From the NCBI GenBank assembly GCA_947377275.1, contig CANCFV010000003.1, positions 19,448 through 83,447 of the forward strand: a stretch of 64,000 bases of DNA, written 5' to 3'. Source of the DNA: Burkholderiales bacterium. GTDB taxonomy: Bacteria > Pseudomonadota > Gammaproteobacteria > Burkholderiales > Burkholderiaceae_C. The translations under genes and the position numbers were made by a program. The notes under the pieces were generated by a model. It was not told the DNA's origin. It saw only the letters and a program-made list of their open reading frames with translations, and ran no database searches. Of the stretch, positions 23,112-31,707 are shown one piece after another. How positions within the stretch are numbered: the stretch's first letter is position 1; every line of letters starts with the position of its first letter.

Positions 23112-23542
23112 GATGAATCCTGAAGTGCAATCGCAAAATCATGGCCTGATGAGGCTGGTGGCACGGTGCGTTGGCGCACAGAGTGCTGGCATCGCCCCCT
23201 GCCGCACTTGAGCCACACGTGAGCAGACGAAGCGCACTCTTGGTTGATCTCGGATGCGCCGCGTCGAGCGATTTCCGGCAGCGAATCTGAGAGTCGCTGT
23301 AGCCTGTGTGGGTCAGCAGCGCGAGTTCGCCGCCAGCCAACGTCAGTTTCTAGCGCAGACCTGCCATTGCTCGGCACAATCCAGTAAGCAACGGAGGTGT
23401 TCGTGTTCTCGCTGTCCAATATGGCTGATTGGTTGGTGCCCCCGGGGCCGTTGTCCGCGGTGTGATGGCTGGCCGTCAATGAGCCTTGACAGGGGCGCCC
23501 TGAATGGCGCCAACACGTTGGCCGCAACAAGTGCACATGACC
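23112..23542. other. Intergenic region, no gene recognised
   Basis: About 430 bases between two outward-facing genes. A TTGACA hexamer occurs near 23484, but no well-spaced -10 element is obvious. Translations in all frames look non-coding. Confidence 0.45.
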
Positions 23543-24205
23543 ATGCTAGTGAACTCCGACTTCTCGCACCGCGTCACAGTGACCGCAGATGAACACCACT
23601 GGGTGCCGTCACCGCAGTCCGGTGTGACGCGCGCAATGCTGGACCGCCTGGGCGGCGAGCAGGCTCGGGCCACGAGCCTGGTGCGGTACGCGCCGGCATC
23701 GATGTTCCCGGCGCACAGTCACCCCGGCGGGGAGGAGATCCTTGTGCTGTCGGGCACCTTCTCGGACGGCAGCGGCCATTACGGGCCTGGCTGGTACCTG
23801 CGAAACCCGCCGGGCTCGGCCCACCAACCCTCGAGCGTGGACGGCGCGCTGATCTTCGTGAAGCTGTGGCAAATGCCGGCAGACGACACGCGTGCCTTGC
23901 GCGTCGACACACACGATCCCTCTGTGTGGCGACGTGACGGGGCGCACGAGGTCTGCTTGCTTCACCGGACCGACCATGAGCAGGTCAGCCTGCTGCGGCT
24001 GCTGCCGGGCCACGCGCTGCAGCCGGACGCACGAGGCGGCGCCGAACTTCTGGTACTTGATGGCCAGTTGCTTGACAAAGCCACCGTGCTCGGTCCATCA
24101 GGCTGGCTGCGGCTGCCGCCTGGAGACGGCTCAGAACTCCGCGCCGGCGCCTTTGGGGTCACGCTCTACCTGAAGACCGGTCACCTGGCTGGGTTCGCGA
24201 CATGA
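23543..24205 (+). CDS. ChrR-like cupin protein
   Basis: 220 residues with two tandem cupin folds as in the ChrR anti-sigma/cupin family. The first cupin is intact: AHSHPGGEEILVLSGTFSDG and the following WYLRNPPGSAHQP. The second is degenerate, with a DARGGAELLVLDGQLLDKA-like strand but fewer histidines. The N-terminal zinc-binding anti-sigma domain of true ChrR is missing and no ECF sigma gene is adjacent, so an anti-sigma role is doubtful. The start is MLVNSDFSHRV at 23543; an ATG six bases upstream is possible. Its stop overlaps by four bases the start of the amine-oxidase pseudogene, so the two formed an operon. Confidence 0.85.
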   Translation: MLVNSDFSHRVTVTADEHHWVPSPQSGVTRAMLDRLGGEQARATSLVRYAPASMFPAHSHPGGEEILVLSGTFSDGSGHYGPGWYLRNPPGSAHQPSSVDGALIFVKLWQMPADDTRALRVDTHDPSVWRRDGAHEVCLLHRTDHEQVSLLRLLPGHALQPDARGGAELLVLDGQLLDKATVLGPSGWLRLPPGDGSELRAGAFGVTLYLKTGHLAGFAT

Positions 24206-25102
24206 CGACACCCATCACCCGAATTGTCATCGTGGGCGGCGGCTTGGCCGGAAGCCGGTGACTTGCTCGTCGAGCGGTCGACCCAGCAGCCGCCTCAGCG
24301 CATGCGCAGTCATGCCAGCGACCCGCCGTCGATGCGGCTGGCTGGTGGCACCGGTGCCCTTGTTGCCGCGTTGAATGCCCGACTCGATCCCGCGATCGTA
24401 CGCACCGGGCAGACTGTGCGCCGCCTGCGTTGCGAGGCGACCCACGTCGAGCTGACGGTCGACGACGCGGACGGCAAACAGACGACCTGCCAGACCGAGA
24501 AAGTGCTTCTGGCTCTGCCTCCGCGACTGGCCGCGACACGGCTGCAATTCGATCCCCCGCTGCCCTCCGATCTGGCGCGCTGCAGGCAGGGGACGCCGAC
24601 TTGGATGGCACCGCACGCGAAGTACGTGGCTGTTTACGACTCACCGTTCTGGCGCGAACAGGGACTGTCCGGCGGCGCGCGCAGCAGCGCTGGCCCGATG
24701 GGTGAGATCCACGACGTCTCGATGCCTGGCGGTCACCCAGCGCTGTTCGGATTCCTGAGCGTGCCGGCGCGGGTGCGCCGCCAGGTCAGTGACGAGGTGC
24801 TGCGAAGGCACTGCCGGGCGCAGCTCGTCCGGCTGTTTGGCGAGCGGGCCGGTATGCCGCTGGGCGACGCCTTGCAGGACTGGGCAGCCGAAGCGCTGAC
24901 CGCGACCGATGACGACCAGGACGCCGCAGGCCACCATGCTGCACCACCGCCGAGCAGCCCCGATGGGGGCGCATGGCAAGGCCGTTTGATCGGCATCGGC
25001 AGCGAATGGTCTCCGCTGTTCCCGGGCTATCTGGCCGGGGCGGTCGATGCTGCCGAGCGCGGCGTCCAGCAAAGCGTTGCGGCTTCAGAGAAGTCTCGCT
25101 GA
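24202..25102 (+). pseudogene. FAD-dependent amine oxidase, inactivated by internal deletion and frameshift
   Basis: Remains of a flavin monoamine-oxidase-type gene. An ATG at 24202 overlapping the cupin stop starts the FAD-binding sequence TRIVIVGGGLAGSR and then hits a TGA at 24259. Directly afterwards, in another frame, sequence typical of the middle and end of the family resumes: GDLLVERSTQQPPQRM, then SMRLAGGTGALVAALNARL, the substrate domain, and the C-terminal FAD-contact region GSEWSPLFPGYLAGAVDAAE. The rest of the N-terminal FAD domain, which I estimate at 80-100 residues, is missing. A downstream open frame from 24224 exists, but without the dinucleotide fold it cannot bind FAD. Confidence 0.8.
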
Positions 25103-25315
25103 AGGACTGTAGCCAGCGTGAAGCCGTTACGGTCGCCGGCAGCTCCGCAGCGGGAGGCGGTCAAACCAGGGCTCGTATCCGAATGAGAAAGCGTGAAGGA
25201 GTCCGCGGCCGTTCGCTTCAGATTTTGAACAAATCGACGAAATATGTAACTGATTGACCCGCCCGACGTGCCCCTCGGCCCAACAAGGCGTGGGTGTTGC
25301 AATCGACCAGACCCA

Positions 25316-28300
25316 ATGAGCATGAACGTCCGCCCCGAAGTCGCGCTGCCCATCCAGGCGCCCGCCCATCCCCGTTCGCTGGGCTGGATCGGTACGACGG
25401 CGCTCGCAATGGGCGGTAGCAATCAGAGCCTGTTCATCCTGGCGGCTCTGTTCATCGGTCAGGGTGAAATACTGGGCCAGGGCACGGCCGCAGTGCCGCT
25501 GCTTTGGGTCGGCTTGCTGCTGGCGTGGGCGGCTGCGCCCGGCTGGACCGAACTGGTGCTGATGTATCCGCATCGGGTCGGTGGCATCGCTGCCACTTGC
25601 ACCGAAGCATTCCGGCCCTACAGCCCGGTGCTGGCCAACCTGACTGGCGTCTGCTACTGGTGGGGCTGGGTGCCGACCTGCGGCATCACCGCCATCCTGT
25701 CGGCTTCGGCCATCCACGAGTGGTATCTGCCGGGCATCCCGATCAACGCGCTGGCCATTGCGCTGGTGCTCGCGTTCACGCTGCTCAACCTGGCCGGCAT
25801 CCGCTGGGTCACGCGGCTGGCCGTGCCGGTGGCCAGCGCATCTGCCCTGCTGGCTTTCGTGTCGGGACTGGCACCCATTTTCGCCGGTACCGTCGACTGG
25901 CATACGGCCACCACCTTCACCCTGACCACGCCGTTCAGCGGCTGGTTCGGTCAGCTCACCAGCCTGATGGCCGGGCTGTATCTGATCGGCTTTGCCGCAC
26001 CCGCCTTCGAGGCTGCCGCGTGCCATGTGGGCGAGGCCATCGATCCCGCCAAAACGATCCCGCGCGCGATGCGGGCCAGTGGCCTGCTGGCCGGCATGTT
26101 CTTTGTCGTCCTGCCGCTGGTTTGGCTGGGCAGCCTGGGAGCCGAGCCCCTGGGCAAGGACCTGGCCCTGGTCCTCGGTCCCACGTTCGCGCCACTGTTC
26201 GGCAACTTGGCCAAGACCGTCGCCATCTGGTTCATGGTGCTGGGCATGTTCTCCGGCACGCTGCAGCCCCTGGCCGGCGCCTCTCGCACGCTGGCCCAGC
26301 TGTCGGAAGACGGCCTGCTGCCGCGCATCCTCGCGCGCCGTTCACGCACCGATGCACCCTGGGTCGCGACGCTGCTGACCGCCGGCATGGCCATCGCCTT
26401 TCTGCTGATCGGCGACCCGATCTGGCTGATCGCAGCGGCCAACTTCACCTACCTGATCAGCATCACGCTGCCCAGTGTGGCCGTCTGGCTGCTGCGGCGC
26501 GATGCGCCGCAGATGCACCGGCCCTACCGAGCACCGCGCGGCACCATCGGGCTGGGTCTGGCCGCTGCCGTGGTCTGGGGCTGTGCCGCTCTGCTCGGTT
26601 TCGAGCAGTACGGGCTGTCGACCGTGCTGATTGGCCTGGCATTTGCCTACTCGGGCTCGGCGCTCTACGCCTGGCGCAAGTACGAGGACCGCCGACGCGC
26701 AGGCCTGCCCGGCTTGGCCGGCTCGCTGCAGCTCAAGCTGACCGGCGCGCTGGTGGGCGTGCTGGTGCTGGACGGGGCCGGCTACCTGCTGGCCGTCAGC
26801 AACCTGCCACCGCAGCAAGGCGCGCTGATGACAGGCCTGGCCGACATCTTCGTGGCCGTCGCGATGCTCTCGATCACGGTGGCGCTGCTGCTGCCGGGCA
26901 TGATCGCCAACTCCGTGCTCGAAGTCGCCAGCGCCGCCAGGCGGCTGACCGCCGGCACGCTTGAAGACTTCTCGCGAGCGATGAATGCACTCGGCCGTGG
27001 CGATCTCGATGCCGCGCACGCCCGCGTTGACATCACGCCGGTCAGCATCACCACCAGCGACGAGGTCGGCGAAATGGCGGCCAGCTTCAACACGATGCAG
27101 GCGCAGATCGGCTACGCCGCGGTCGGGTTGGTCGGCGCCCGAGAAGGTCTGCGCGAGGCACGCGATGCCCTGACCGACGCCAACGACCGACTGGAGCAGA
27201 AGGTGGTGAAACTGCACCTCGCCGAAGAGAAGCTGTCCGGACTGCTCGAGTCGATCGACAACGTGGTGTGGTCCATGTCGCTCGAGACCGGCGATCTGCT
27301 CTACCTCAACCCGGCGGCCGAACGCATCTACGGCCGCCCGGTCGATGCGTTTTTTGCCGATCGGGATCTGTGGCTGAGCATCGTGCACGCGGACGACCGC
27401 GAGCGTGTGCTGGCCCGCCTGCAAGGGCCGTTTCAAAGTGACACCATCAGCTCCGAATATCGCGTGGTGCGGCCCGACCGCAGCGAGCGCTGGCTCGAGG
27501 ACCGGGCCCGCGTCATCCGCGGACCGGACGGCGCGTTGCTGCGCCTTGACGGCATCGCCACCGACATCACCGAGCGCAAATCCCATGCCGAACGCATCGC
27601 TCACCAGGCCAACCACGACGCATTGACCGGCCTGCCCAACCGCAACCGGCTGAACGACCGGATCGAACAGGCGCTGGCCTTGGCGCGACGCAGCGGCCAG
27701 CACGTGGCGGTGTTGTTCATGGACCTGGACGGCTTCAAGTTTGTCAACGACAGCTACGGCCATCCGTTCGGCGACGCGCTGCTGTGCACGGTCGCCGCGC
27801 GCCTTCAGGTCGTGGTCCGCGAAAGCGATACGGTGGCCCGGCTGGGCGGCGACGAGTTCCTGATCCTGTTGCCCAGCCTGGACCGCGCCGAGGATGCACA
27901 GCAAGTGGCCGCCAAGGTGCTCGATGCGTTCAAGGTCCAGATCTCGCATGGCGGCCGCGACCTGCAGCTGAGCGCCAGCATCGGCATCAGCGTGTTTCCC
28001 GACGATGGTGACGATGGCGCCTTGCTCTTGCAGCATGCCGACGTGGCGATGTACCACGCCAAGGCCCAGGGCCGCAACCGCTACCAGTGCTACGCCAGCG
28101 AAATGGGCATGCAGGCGCAGGAGCGCATGGAGCTTGAAGGTGCCTTGCGCATGGCGCTCGAACGCCAACAACTCGAGGTGCACTATCAGCCTCAGGTCGA
28201 ACGCGAGAGTGGCCGCATCGTCGGCGTCGAGGCGCTTTTGCGCTGGACGCACCCCACGCTGGGCAAGGTTTCCCCCGCACGCTTCATCCCTCTGGCGGAA

Positions 28301-28906
28301 GAGACTGGCTTGATCATTCCGATCGGTGAATGGGTGCTGCGCACCGCCTGCGCCCAGGCACAGTCGTGGCATGCGGCGGGGCACGGGACCCTGAGCGTCG
28401 CCGTCAACATGTCGGCCCGCCAGTTCCAGCAACAGGACGTGCCCGCTCTGGTGGGCCATGTCCTTGCGGCCACAGGATTGCCTGCTCGGTTCCTGGAGCT
28501 GGAGCTGACGGAGTCGGTCTTGATGCACGACACCGATCAGGTGGTCCGCACCATGCAGCGGATCAAGCAGCTCGGCGTGCGGCTGGCCCTCGATGATTTC
28601 GGGACTGGCTACTCGAGCCTGAGCTATCTGAAGCGATTCCCGATTGACGTGCTGAAGATCGACCAGTCCTTCACCTTCGAGGTGGCGCGTGATGCAGGCA
28701 CCGCCTCGATCACGCGCGCCATCATCGCGATGGCGCATTCGCTGCAAATGACAACGGTCGCCGAGGGCGTCGAAGACCAGGTCCAGTTCGACTTCCTCGC
28801 CGAGCTGGGCTGCGACGTCATGCAGGGATATCACATCGCCCGCCCCATGCCGGCAAACCAAGTCACGGCGCTGCTCGATGCGGAGCTGCGGCTCGAAAAG
28901 CAATGA
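25316..28906 (+). CDS. APC amino-acid permease fused to HAMP-PAS-GGDEF-EAL (c-di-GMP turnover)
   Basis: A 1196-residue hybrid. Residues 1-470 form a full APC-superfamily permease of about 12 helices (IGTTALAMGGSNQSLFILAA at the start, GFAAPAFEAAACHVGEAIDP in the middle). Two more helices at about 472-494 and 503-532 lead into a HAMP-like linker (541-598, ending DEVGEMAASFNTM), a coiled coil and a PAS domain (640-757). The GGDEF domain has an intact GGDEF at 844-848 and an inhibitory-site RESD at 835-838. The EAL domain (from about 935) keeps E972-A-L, DDFGTGYSSL and EGVED. Both cyclase and phosphodiesterase appear competent. I start at ATG 25316 over the GTG at 25268. It follows the broken amine-oxidase gene. 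Confidence 0.93.
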   Translation: MSMNVRPEVALPIQAPAHPRSLGWIGTTALAMGGSNQSLFILAALFIGQGEILGQGTAAVPLLWVGLLLAWAAAPGWTELVLMYPHRVGGIAATCTEAFRPYSPVLANLTGVCYWWGWVPTCGITAILSASAIHEWYLPGIPINALAIALVLAFTLLNLAGIRWVTRLAVPVASASALLAFVSGLAPIFAGTVDWHTATTFTLTTPFSGWFGQLTSLMAGLYLIGFAAPAFEAAACHVGEAIDPAKTIPRAMRASGLLAGMFFVVLPLVWLGSLGAEPLGKDLALVLGPTFAPLFGNLAKTVAIWFMVLGMFSGTLQPLAGASRTLAQLSEDGLLPRILARRSRTDAPWVATLLTAGMAIAFLLIGDPIWLIAAANFTYLISITLPSVAVWLLRRDAPQMHRPYRAPRGTIGLGLAAAVVWGCAALLGFEQYGLSTVLIGLAFAYSGSALYAWRKYEDRRRAGLPGLAGSLQLKLTGALVGVLVLDGAGYLLAVSNLPPQQGALMTGLADIFVAVAMLSITVALLLPGMIANSVLEVASAARRLTAGTLEDFSRAMNALGRGDLDAAHARVDITPVSITTSDEVGEMAASFNTMQAQIGYAAVGLVGAREGLREARDALTDANDRLEQKVVKLHLAEEKLSGLLESIDNVVWSMSLETGDLLYLNPAAERIYGRPVDAFFADRDLWLSIVHADDRERVLARLQGPFQSDTISSEYRVVRPDRSERWLEDRARVIRGPDGALLRLDGIATDITERKSHAERIAHQANHDALTGLPNRNRLNDRIEQALALARRSGQHVAVLFMDLDGFKFVNDSYGHPFGDALLCTVAARLQVVVRESDTVARLGGDEFLILLPSLDRAEDAQQVAAKVLDAFKVQISHGGRDLQLSASIGISVFPDDGDDGALLLQHADVAMYHAKAQGRNRYQCYASEMGMQAQERMELEGALRMALERQQLEVHYQPQVERESGRIVGVEALLRWTHPTLGKVSPARFIPLAEETGLIIPIGEWVLRTACAQAQSWHAAGHGTLSVAVNMSARQFQQQDVPALVGHVLAATGLPARFLELELTESVLMHDTDQVVRTMQRIKQLGVRLALDDFGTGYSSLSYLKRFPIDVLKIDQSFTFEVARDAGTASITRAIIAMAHSLQMTTVAEGVEDQVQFDFLAELGCDVMQGYHIARPMPANQVTALLDAELRLEKQ

Positions 28907-29391
28907 CGCGCACGGCGCACGATGTTCAACTTTCCAAGGTGGACAGCGTGCGACCCGCCCGCTCAACGTCGCGCGCCAGATCGGCGTATCCGTGCGAAGC
29001 GTGCAACGCTGGGTCGAGCTGGGTCGCTCGCGAGCTTGGAAGACGATCATGGCGCTCCAGTGACCATCACCCTCCCTTGCGAATGAGTTGATGAGACTTC
29101 GCACTTCCCATCGTGGTGCTGAGCGACCGGTCGCCTCTGCGCGGCTGGTTCGCGAGGGGAAGTCCCGTCCATTCGCTGAGCGTCGGCTTTCAGGCGGCTC
29201 AGTCGGCATTGTCAAAGGGCGCCAAGGGTCGTTTTAGCTGCCCCCCCGTCAGACCCACACGGGGTGACCGCGCCCAGCCTGTAGCTGGCACTCGGCGCGC
29301 TGTGCGGGCTGCCGTACAGACCGACCCGCGGCGCTCCGACACGCTCAACTCGTGGCCGCTCCATTTTGATCGGCCAGGACAAGGCAACCCC
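28907..29391. other. Intergenic region with a possible helix-turn-helix remnant
   Basis: 485 bases. At about 28955-29060 one frame gives NVARQIGVSVRSVQRWVELG, which resembles a helix-turn-helix of a regulator or transposase, but it has no start, no partner domain and a stop soon after. The remainder shows nothing recognisable. I treat it as a possible remnant only. Confidence 0.3.
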
Positions 29392-29772
29392 ATGACCCAG
29401 CAAGTATCCGCGTCAAGCCAGGGCGCCAGCAGCGTCGCCCACGACCTCATTCCCAGTCTCGACGCCGCCGGCTTTGCGTCGCATGTGCTGAGGGGGCAGG
29501 GGCCGATTGCGGTGGAGTTCATGTCCTACAGCTGCGCCTATTGCGGCGCGATTGAGCCGGTCTTGCAGCAGGTGGCCGAGACGCTGCGTTCGCAGGAGGC
29601 GGTCTACAAAGTGAACGTGGCGGTGGAGCAAGAGCTGGCCAGCACTTACGCGATTGAGGGCACACCGACGCTGGTCATGTTCTCGCAAGGCCAGGAGCTT
29701 GGGCGGGCCGAGGGTGTACACCCGGATGCGGCAAGCGTGCTTGAGGCACTGACGGCGCCATTCAGGTCATGA
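29392..29772 (+). CDS. Thioredoxin-family protein with CAYC active site
   Basis: 126-residue thioredoxin-fold protein, cytoplasmic as no signal peptide is present. The redox motif is SCAYCGA (C48, C51) instead of the usual WCGPC, and the cis-proline loop is EGTPTLVMF. The variant motif suggests a different redox potential or partner from standard thioredoxin. Its stop overlaps the ATG of the DCC1-family gene by four bases, so the two redox proteins are probably made as a pair. Confidence 0.85.
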   Translation: MTQQVSASSQGASSVAHDLIPSLDAAGFASHVLRGQGPIAVEFMSYSCAYCGAIEPVLQQVAETLRSQEAVYKVNVAVEQELASTYAIEGTPTLVMFSQGQELGRAEGVHPDAASVLEALTAPFRS

Positions 29773-30567: not shown

Positions 30568-31707
30568 TTAACTTGGAATCATCCTGGTTTCTCCGGCCCG
30601 GCGCTGGCGCTTTCGGGAGACCCCGAGCACTGTACCGAGTCCGGCCAGCACCATGGCCCAAGCCCCAGGTTCGGGCACTGCCGCTGCCACCGCGACCAGG
30701 TTGGCCGCGCCGTTCTGCGCGCCGAGGTAGCTTCCAATGTCTCCCAGGCCAGGGTTCGAATCCGAGCCTTCCAGAATGGCGTGGTTGTCGATGGCATCGT
30801 ACTGGCCGCCGAACTTGTAGAACTCATATCGGCGCAGGATGGATGCGGCATTGGGCCCGACAGGCGCACCATAGCCGCTTTCAAGAATGCCGGACAAGGG
30901 GTTGCCAGGATCCTTTTGGAGCAGCTGCCACTCGGTCTCCGTCTTCAGGTTTTTGAGCGCGGCATTGCCACCGATCAAGTCCTCCAGCTGGGGGGCATTT
31001 TCCAGCTCGGTCGTGAACACCTTGACCCATATAGCCGTGCCCCATTGGGCTTCGGGCTTTTCAGGGGGCTGGACAGGTGCTGGGGCTTGAATCACGGCAG
31101 CGACGACAGGCGGTGCAGGTGGCTGTCCGACCGGTGGCTGCGCGGCAGGAATGACGTTCCACACCGGTGCGGGCAGGTTGACGATGCTGTTGTTCAAAAC
31201 CCCTGAGTTGGGCGCGGTCTCGGTCAGCCAGCTGTACGTGGTCTTGGTTGCGTTCGCTCTCACACCCACACCGAAGTGGTCGCAGGGCGTGCTGGCGTTG
31301 TAGCCAAGGCCGCCACCCGACCAGCAATTGTCGCCAGGGGTGATGAAGGAGCCGCTGGGGGTGCCGTAATCCCACGACGAGCCGTTGAACAGGCCCTGGT
31401 AGACGACCTTGGTGCCGAAGACGCCGCCGATCGCGTACTCGGAGATCGTCGGTGAACCGTATCGCTCCACACTGCCGGAGCCGAAACCGCGACCGGTGGG
31501 GAAGCCACGACCGGCACCGCCGAACGTGTCGGTGATGTCACTCGCGTGCAGGCCTTCAAGGTCAATCTCGAAACCATGCGCTTCTTTGCCGGTGTCGTTG
31601 ATGACGTCGAAATTGCCCAGAAACCCGATCACCGCAGCCGACGAAACGGCTGGAGCCAAAGCGAGGGCCGCAACGGCAGACACCAGGGAAAGCTTGAATC
31701 GCCGCAT
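30568..31707 (-). CDS. PEP-CTERM sorted surface protein
   Basis: 379-residue secreted protein. A signal peptide (MRRFKLSLVSAVAALALAPA, cut near SSAA) starts it, and the C-terminus is a textbook PEP-CTERM signal: VPEPGAWAMVLAGLGTVLGV followed by the basic cluster SRKRQRR. Such proteins are cut and anchored by an exosortase, usually in strains that make exopolysaccharide. Neither exosortase nor polysaccharide genes occur in this window, so it is an orphan substrate. The body is glycine, asparagine and aspartate rich with no enzyme motif. A proline/glutamine-rich linker sits near VGQPPAPPVVAAVIQAPAP. Confidence 0.9.
   Translation of the reverse strand: MRRFKLSLVSAVAALALAPAVSSAAVIGFLGNFDVINDTGKEAHGFEIDLEGLHASDITDTFGGAGRGFPTGRGFGSGSVERYGSPTISEYAIGGVFGTKVVYQGLFNGSSWDYGTPSGSFITPGDNCWSGGGLGYNASTPCDHFGVGVRANATKTTYSWLTETAPNSGVLNNSIVNLPAPVWNVIPAAQPPVGQPPAPPVVAAVIQAPAPVQPPEKPEAQWGTAIWVKVFTTELENAPQLEDLIGGNAALKNLKTETEWQLLQKDPGNPLSGILESGYGAPVGPNAASILRRYEFYKFGGQYDAIDNHAILEGSDSNPGLGDIGSYLGAQNGAANLVAVAAAVPEPGAWAMVLAGLGTVLGVSRKRQRRAGETRMIPS

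Follow-up and report, generated by a model that had tools for sequence, protein, structure and literature searches.

A likely portable receptor module related to APC permeases, fused to c-di-GMP enzymes and to kinases in bacteria

Introduction

Can a permease of the APC superfamily serve as the sensory part of a signalling enzyme? The question is raised by one gene in a 64,000-nucleotide stretch of DNA, here called the window, from a Burkholderiales bacterium (GenBank assembly GCA_947377275.1, contig CANCFV010000003.1). The gene (window positions 25316..28906, + strand, as are all of its features given below) encodes a 1196-residue protein in which an APC permease is followed by two transmembrane helices and by HAMP, PAS, GGDEF and EAL domains. 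An earlier note, made from the sequence alone, had described this order of domains in a single uninterrupted frame and had proposed that a transporter-derived module is placed ahead of enzymes that make and degrade cyclic dimeric GMP (c-di-GMP). The architecture was confirmed by Pfam, by translation and by an AlphaFold2 model, and the proposal is supported by recurrence of the fusion in independent genomes. Judging from sequence comparison and the structure model, the protein is probably a membrane receptor in which a ligand occupying the former transport site would change the relative rates of c-di-GMP synthesis and breakdown. This reading builds on what is observed, namely the architecture itself, the intact catalytic motifs, a conserved permease core, and a sensor module that recurs with outputs of other kinds.

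Domain architecture of the window protein

The reading frame is open from a GTG at 25268 or an ATG at 25316 through 28906, and either start is possible; the database copy of the protein (P0002) has 1194 residues. A Pfam scan yielded five domain matches, all above the gathering cut-off. The first, AA_permease_2 (PF13520), covers residues 22-419 with 127.9 bits against a cut-off of 27 and spans profile positions 1-400 of 427, within a 12-helix core of the APC/LeuT fold that extends over residues 20-461 (25373..26698). The model places two extra transmembrane helices, TM13 and TM14, at residues 471-525 (26726..26890). No Pfam family matched this region at E ≤ 0.1, either within residues 467-547 or within residues 424-547, the latter with a library that may or may not contain a STAC model. 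The HAMP domain (residues 544-598, 26945..27109, 30.4 bits) is continuous with TM14 in the model and is followed by a predicted long helix or coiled coil (residues 600-651, 27113..27268). Beyond it lie the Pfam matches to PAS_3 (residues 662-748, 27299..27559), GGDEF (residues 765-922, 27608..28081) and EAL (residues 943-1177, 28142..28846). At E ≤ 0.001 the protein matched neither the SSF family, in whose place AA_permease_2 stands, nor the Amt family. A promoter scan found none.

Both catalytic domains keep their signature residues. The translation contains RESD-TVARL-GGDEF, with the GGDEF motif and the RxxD inhibitory site intact, and then EALLRW, DDFGTGYSSL, KIDQSF, EGVED and MQGY. In a set of 89 proteins picked by a DDFG-type motif, the window protein included, a GGDEF-like motif and the EAL and EGVE motifs were present in all 89 (the GGDEF motif in its strict form in 86), KID in 88 and RxxD in 87.

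Recurrence of the fusion in independent genomes

Recurrence of the APC-GGDEF/EAL architecture as a conserved fusion was one of the checks that the earlier note had proposed, and it was observed in independent genomes. A protein search with residues 1-620, in which 7996 candidates were scored, returned 1850 proteins at E ≤ 1e-3. The best 120 of these 1850, among them the copy from the window itself, share 71-100% identity with the window protein over 95-100% of those residues; when the window is added, the outputs are GGDEF-EAL in 90/121 and HisKA in 27/121. Scanning one genome for each of 84,980 species with sequence patterns confirmed 152 relatives, and the results by locus given here concern the best 80 of these 152, in which the sensor part (the permease, the two extra helices and HAMP) is 55-83% identical to that of the window (median 67%). 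According to their record titles, and with the reservation that most are metagenome bins whose taxon assignment may be wrong, these loci belong to Pseudomonadota (39), Verrucomicrobiota (26), Actinomycetota (7), Armatimonadota (3), Myxococcota (2), Chloroflexota (1) and Omnitrophota (1), with one unassigned. Isolates carrying a sensor include Glaciimonas immobilis DSM 23240, Paraconexibacter antarcticus and Verrucomicrobia bacterium IMCC26134.

Within the window's own family and class the fusion is rare and patchy. Searches with the permease alone found a sensor in 2/399 genomes of the family and in 3/369 of the class, the window's own genome being counted each time, and a genome search with the whole protein matched the sensor part in 3/61 genomes (again including the window's), the rest being other GGDEF-EAL proteins. 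Among 40 plasmid matches listed, one is another sensor and the other 39 are at most 32% identical; phage records yielded no sensor and two weak permease matches.

These data bear on the suspicion that the frame is an assembly or annotation artefact in which two genes have been joined. The sole point in its favour is that the window genome is a 221-contig assembly. Against it stands the finding of this architecture in independent genomes, including the isolates Glaciimonas immobilis and Paraconexibacter antarcticus, and a second genome of the window's family has a 1217-residue open frame with 85% identity over the permease. Because the fusion recurs in this way, the artefact explanation is refuted for practical purposes and retains a vanishingly small probability.

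One sensor module, several outputs

The outputs attached to this sensor part vary. By profile, the 81 sensors at the 80 loci and the window comprise 24 with GGDEF-EAL, 2 with GGDEF-HD-GYP, 44 with HisKA, 5 with HisKA_2/HWE and 3 with a third kinase type, the first four kinds having been confirmed with Pfam on one or two members each and the third kinase type being assigned solely by likeness to the output of one locus, L053. The remaining three have no recognised output; one of them reaches a contig end and two stop early. When the five output classes are mapped onto a quick tree built from the sensor part, 10 changes are required, as compared with a minimum of 4 and a mean of 29.5 for shuffled labels; counting well supported branches only, GGDEF-EAL needs at least 4 changes and HisKA at least 6. 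Many residues from TM13 to HAMP are conserved regardless of the type of output. Since closely related modules are joined to at least four kinds of output across seven named phyla, the unit of permease, two helices and HAMP is likely, on this comparative evidence, to be a portable receptor module with exchangeable outputs.

Some of the kinase forms also appear to point to c-di-GMP, because a REC-HD-GYP response regulator adjoins the sensor in 4/52 kinase-type loci (L024, L055, L067 and L078). In three HisKA_2 forms from Opitutae records (L026, L045 and L057), the sensor gene is followed, with an overlap of a few bases, by a second open reading frame (ORF) of 681-684 residues that clusters with signalling proteins. 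Because nearly alike sensor modules precede many outputs, nature has already made the chimaeras, and a ligand identified by assaying a kinase form could then be used on the c-di-GMP forms.

Conservation of the permease core

The second check proposed in the earlier note was whether the TM1/TM6 region of the transport site is retained on modelling. An AlphaFold2 model built from an 80-row alignment has a mean predicted local distance difference test (pLDDT) score of 86, as compared with 73 for an earlier model from 52 rows. In this model the permease helices form a LeuT fold in which residue 36 marks the break of TM1 and residue 228 that of TM6; TM13 spans residues 471-495, and a single long helix (residues 502-560) runs from TM14 into HAMP. 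The break in TM1 falls at GGSNQS (residues 33-38, 25412..25429) and that in TM6 at GFAAPAFE (residues 225-232, 25988..26011). Across 80 aligned relatives, W115, W116, G117, W118 and P120 of TM3 (in the segment CYWWGWVP, residues 113-120, 25652..25675) and G225, F226, A228, P229, A230 and E232 of TM6 are invariant, and G33, G34, S35, N36, Q37 and F40 of TM1 are nearly so. Among the 81 locus sensors the mean share of the commonest residue is 0.95 over residues 31-40 in TM1 and 0.975 over residues 287-293 in TM8, as compared with 0.78 for the permease as a whole. The breaks are thus kept and strongly conserved, so that the core has not been lost; it is complete and under constraint.

The near-invariance of the pocket helices bears on the proposal that the permease does no more than anchor the protein in the membrane and provide a platform for the dimer, the real input being the PAS domain. 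A PAS domain is indeed present, and the available text on the histidine kinase CbrA, which has a transporter domain of the SLC5 type, reports that its activation does not need that domain (PMC7096432). An anchor would have no need of a preserved core with nearly invariant pocket helices, and 19 of the 24 GGDEF-EAL sensors (loci and window) have no match to the window's PAS, one that was checked having a GAF domain instead. We therefore regard a role as mere anchor as quite improbable.

For the receptor reading, these observations suggest the following sequence of events. A ligand from outside would enter between TM1, TM3, TM6, TM8 and TM10 and, lodged in the former transport site, would fix one state of the LeuT-fold bundle. 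The change in the bundle would shift TM13 and TM14, and the continuous helix from TM14 into HAMP would relay the movement to the coiled coil, the PAS domain and the catalytic domains of a dimer, with the result that GGDEF activity would be shifted against EAL activity. Several considerations weigh against this account. PAS could be the true signal input, and CbrA still signals when its SLC5 domain is missing (PMC7096432, in the part of the text available). Part of the apparent constraint also stems from selection: two database searches supplied the 80 aligned relatives, which were retrieved through words shared with the window; patterns taken from TM3 and TM6 had served to find the loci, which exaggerates the conservation of these helices in the 81 locus sensors; and the higher median identity of the permease (82%) over GGDEF (69%) and EAL (72%) arises in part because the matches were chosen by their sensor part.

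A further alternative, as has been proposed for CbrA, is that the protein is a true transceptor, whose permease would still carry substrate into the cell and whose enzyme state would follow directly from the transport cycle. The preserved core and TM1/TM6 breaks, with no sign here of lost transport residues, fit such a role, and CbrA is described as importing histidine (PMC7096432, available text). One might expect a useful importer to exist on its own as well, and it therefore counts against transport that no clean stand-alone permease was seen among 20 short matches picked from 120 listed; inspected by eye, these end in garbled frames, at the ends of fragments or, in one case (P0134), shortly after HAMP. 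The very long stem of the sensor clade, described below, is likewise as expected after a change of role. Coupled transport is accordingly a possible but doubtful explanation. The family as a whole would give direct access to the question of whether, in receptors of the transporter type, binding is enough for signalling or turnover is needed.

Candidate ligand

The earlier note had suggested an amino acid or an amine as the ligand. The best NCBIfam match of the sensor is to the trimethylamine N-oxide (TMAO) permease family (NF053774), with 131 bits (the next match has 72), and because the curated cut-off is 690 bits the sensor is a relative and not a member of that family. All four plasmid-borne relatives that were examined with their genes pass this cut-off, and three of them are found in the company of genes for dimethylamine monooxygenase, aminomethyltransferase or TMAO demethylase. 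In a tree of 45 rows the sensors form one clade (support 100/100), as do the TMAO-like permeases (100/100), and the two share a branch with support of 89/85; a wider branch (100/100) contains both clades and two further permeases, to the exclusion of 20 other APC permeases. P120, F231, N376 and Y379 occur in 14/14 sensors and in 8 or 9 of the 9 TMAO-like rows, and in 0, 1, 0 and 0, respectively, of the 20 others; W118 is also common to sensors and TMAO permeases. Unlike the sensors, the four TMAO permeases that were aligned carry neither HAMP nor an output domain.

Sensors and TMAO permeases also agree in what TM1 lacks. The GxG motif of this helix has a role in carboxylate binding. As counted by reading the aligned rows, with pattern matches in L133-L135 judged false, it is absent from 14/14 sensors, from 8/8 TMAO-like rows that include TM1 and from the two further permeases. 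It is present in 11/18 other APC rows with TM1, and the remaining 7 make up the ethanolamine-permease branch (L001, L124-L126 and L133-L135, of which only L001 was tested against that family). Loss of GxG may therefore mark those APC permeases whose substrates have no carboxylate. Since the permeases without GxG seem to be those for carboxylate-free substrates, we infer that the ligand is small and either an amine or an amine oxide. Of the two kinds of ligand suggested before, the amine thus gains some support from kinship with TMAO permeases, and the alpha-amino acid is weakened by the absence of GxG. Our tentative prediction, offered with low confidence, is that the ligand resembles TMAO in being a small amine or amine oxide, and that it is not an ordinary alpha-amino acid.

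A number of observations tell against this assignment. The branch joining sensors to TMAO-like permeases is not starred at its support of 89/85, and the stem of the sensor clade is very long (2.44 changes per column). The kinship is remote, with 26-29% identity between sensor and TMAO permease, and only four of the nine TMAO-like rows of the tree were tested against the family, five being so called by likeness. No TMAO demethylase was found in the window's genome. The enzyme exceeds its cut-off in 6/50 sensor genomes (48/80 loci represented) and in 9/274 genomes of a class sample, a comparison that decides nothing, since the taxa of the class sample were not matched to those of the sensor genomes. 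A conserved neighbour that would name the ligand or the target was not found around the 80 loci and the window.

Taken to its full extent, the comparison would describe a horizontally moving family of transceptors, in which one APC-derived module from the TMAO-permease branch (12 transmembrane helices, two more, and HAMP) responds to a methylated amine or an amine oxide. Across seven phyla, this module would have changed partners some ten times, its outputs being GGDEF-EAL, GGDEF-HD-GYP, HisKA and HisKA_2. We regard this larger proposal as rather doubtful. If it were true, an osmolyte or C1-nitrogen compound would be a direct input to both c-di-GMP and two-component signalling.

Relation to known transporter-type sensors

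Fusions of transporters to signalling domains are already known. In the SLC5-STAC sensors CbrA, CrbS, MxtR and RpuS, a complete secondary-transporter fold is fused to histidine-kinase or diguanylate-cyclase domains, and coupling of transporter to output has been proposed, as described in the available parts of the sources (PMC7096432, PMC7918813, PMC13022988). Theirs is an SLC5/SSS transporter of 13 transmembrane helices with a STAC linker, whereas the window protein has an APC permease of 12, followed by two helices and HAMP. Ks-Amt5, an Amt-histidine kinase, likewise represents a transporter fold recruited as a sensor and binds without translocating, according to the available text (PMC5764959). 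A further case may be the Protein Data Bank chains 8qpf and 8qj3, named 'Ammonium transporter', whose C-terminal stretch aligns with the GGDEF positions of the search profile, a putative domain assigned by sequence match only. These sensors have the Amt fold and ammonium as ligand, unlike the APC permease of the window protein. Because its transporter domain differs from both, the window protein lies outside the SLC5-STAC and Amt fusions.

Two other groups resemble it in part. Yeast Ssy1 is a receptor that evolved from an amino-acid transporter and has no detectable transport; it is eukaryotic, acts through Ptr3 and Ssy5, and has no fused enzyme (PMC12958826, available text). GGDEF-EAL proteins of the MHYT, MASE and 7TMR types place a multi-helix membrane sensor ahead of PAS-GGDEF-EAL, and in the available parts of their descriptions these sensors are not transporter-derived (PMC8846402, PMC9683572). 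The word 'permease' does not appear in the available text of a 2022 review on c-di-GMP sensing (PMC8846402). The earlier note's statement that no APC-GGDEF-EAL receptor has been characterised stands within the open-access literature, to which our survey was confined (subscription papers being outside its scope) and in whose listed titles and abstracts we recognised no description of an APC-GGDEF/EAL or APC-kinase receptor; the SLC5-STAC and Amt fusions are of the same kind with other transporters. What is new here is another transporter family, another linker and an unusually free exchange of outputs. The APC superfamily would thereby be added to the transporters that have been turned into bacterial receptors, with linkage by HAMP instead of STAC.

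Gene neighbourhood

Upstream of the sensor gene lie a ChrR-type Cupin_7 gene (23504-24205, +) and an amine-oxidase-like gene (24202-25102, +). The start of the latter overlaps the stop of the cupin gene; it is broken by a stop codon within about 20 codons, and only its C-terminal part (Pfam positions 181-440) goes on, in another frame. The earlier note had taken these two genes as a hint of an amine ligand. In a tblastn search over the sensor loci, a relative of the cupin was found at one, upstream of the sensor on the opposite strand (L059, 8799-9455, -, 38% identical), and a relative of the amine oxidase at none. An all-against-all comparison of ORFs from the 80 loci and the window, made with a simple ORF caller that may miss short or divergent neighbours, returned, besides one large signalling cluster, three clusters present in at least 4 loci (10, 5 and 4 loci, respectively). 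Their distances from the sensor are scattered, and the first two occur on both strands. Of the 77 near neighbours on the same strand, 56 (54 from the loci and 2 from the window) were scanned with Pfam, 19 members of the signalling cluster and two others (L030 and L068) being left out, and no Pfam family occurred in more than 2 of the 56. With no conserved set of neighbours, the hint from the cupin and amine-oxidase genes is unsupported, and naming the ligand from neighbouring genes was rejected as an approach.

Directly downstream of the sensor gene is an ORF with a thioredoxin domain (29113-29772, +). An ORF of the same cluster also follows the sensor at L019 (13112-13474), and 2/56 of the scanned neighbours match Pfam Thioredoxin. 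Farther along the window, a protein encoded at 30568-31707 (-) has the C-terminal end VPEPGAWAMVLAGLGTVLGVSRKRQRR, which we take to be PEP-CTERM-like.

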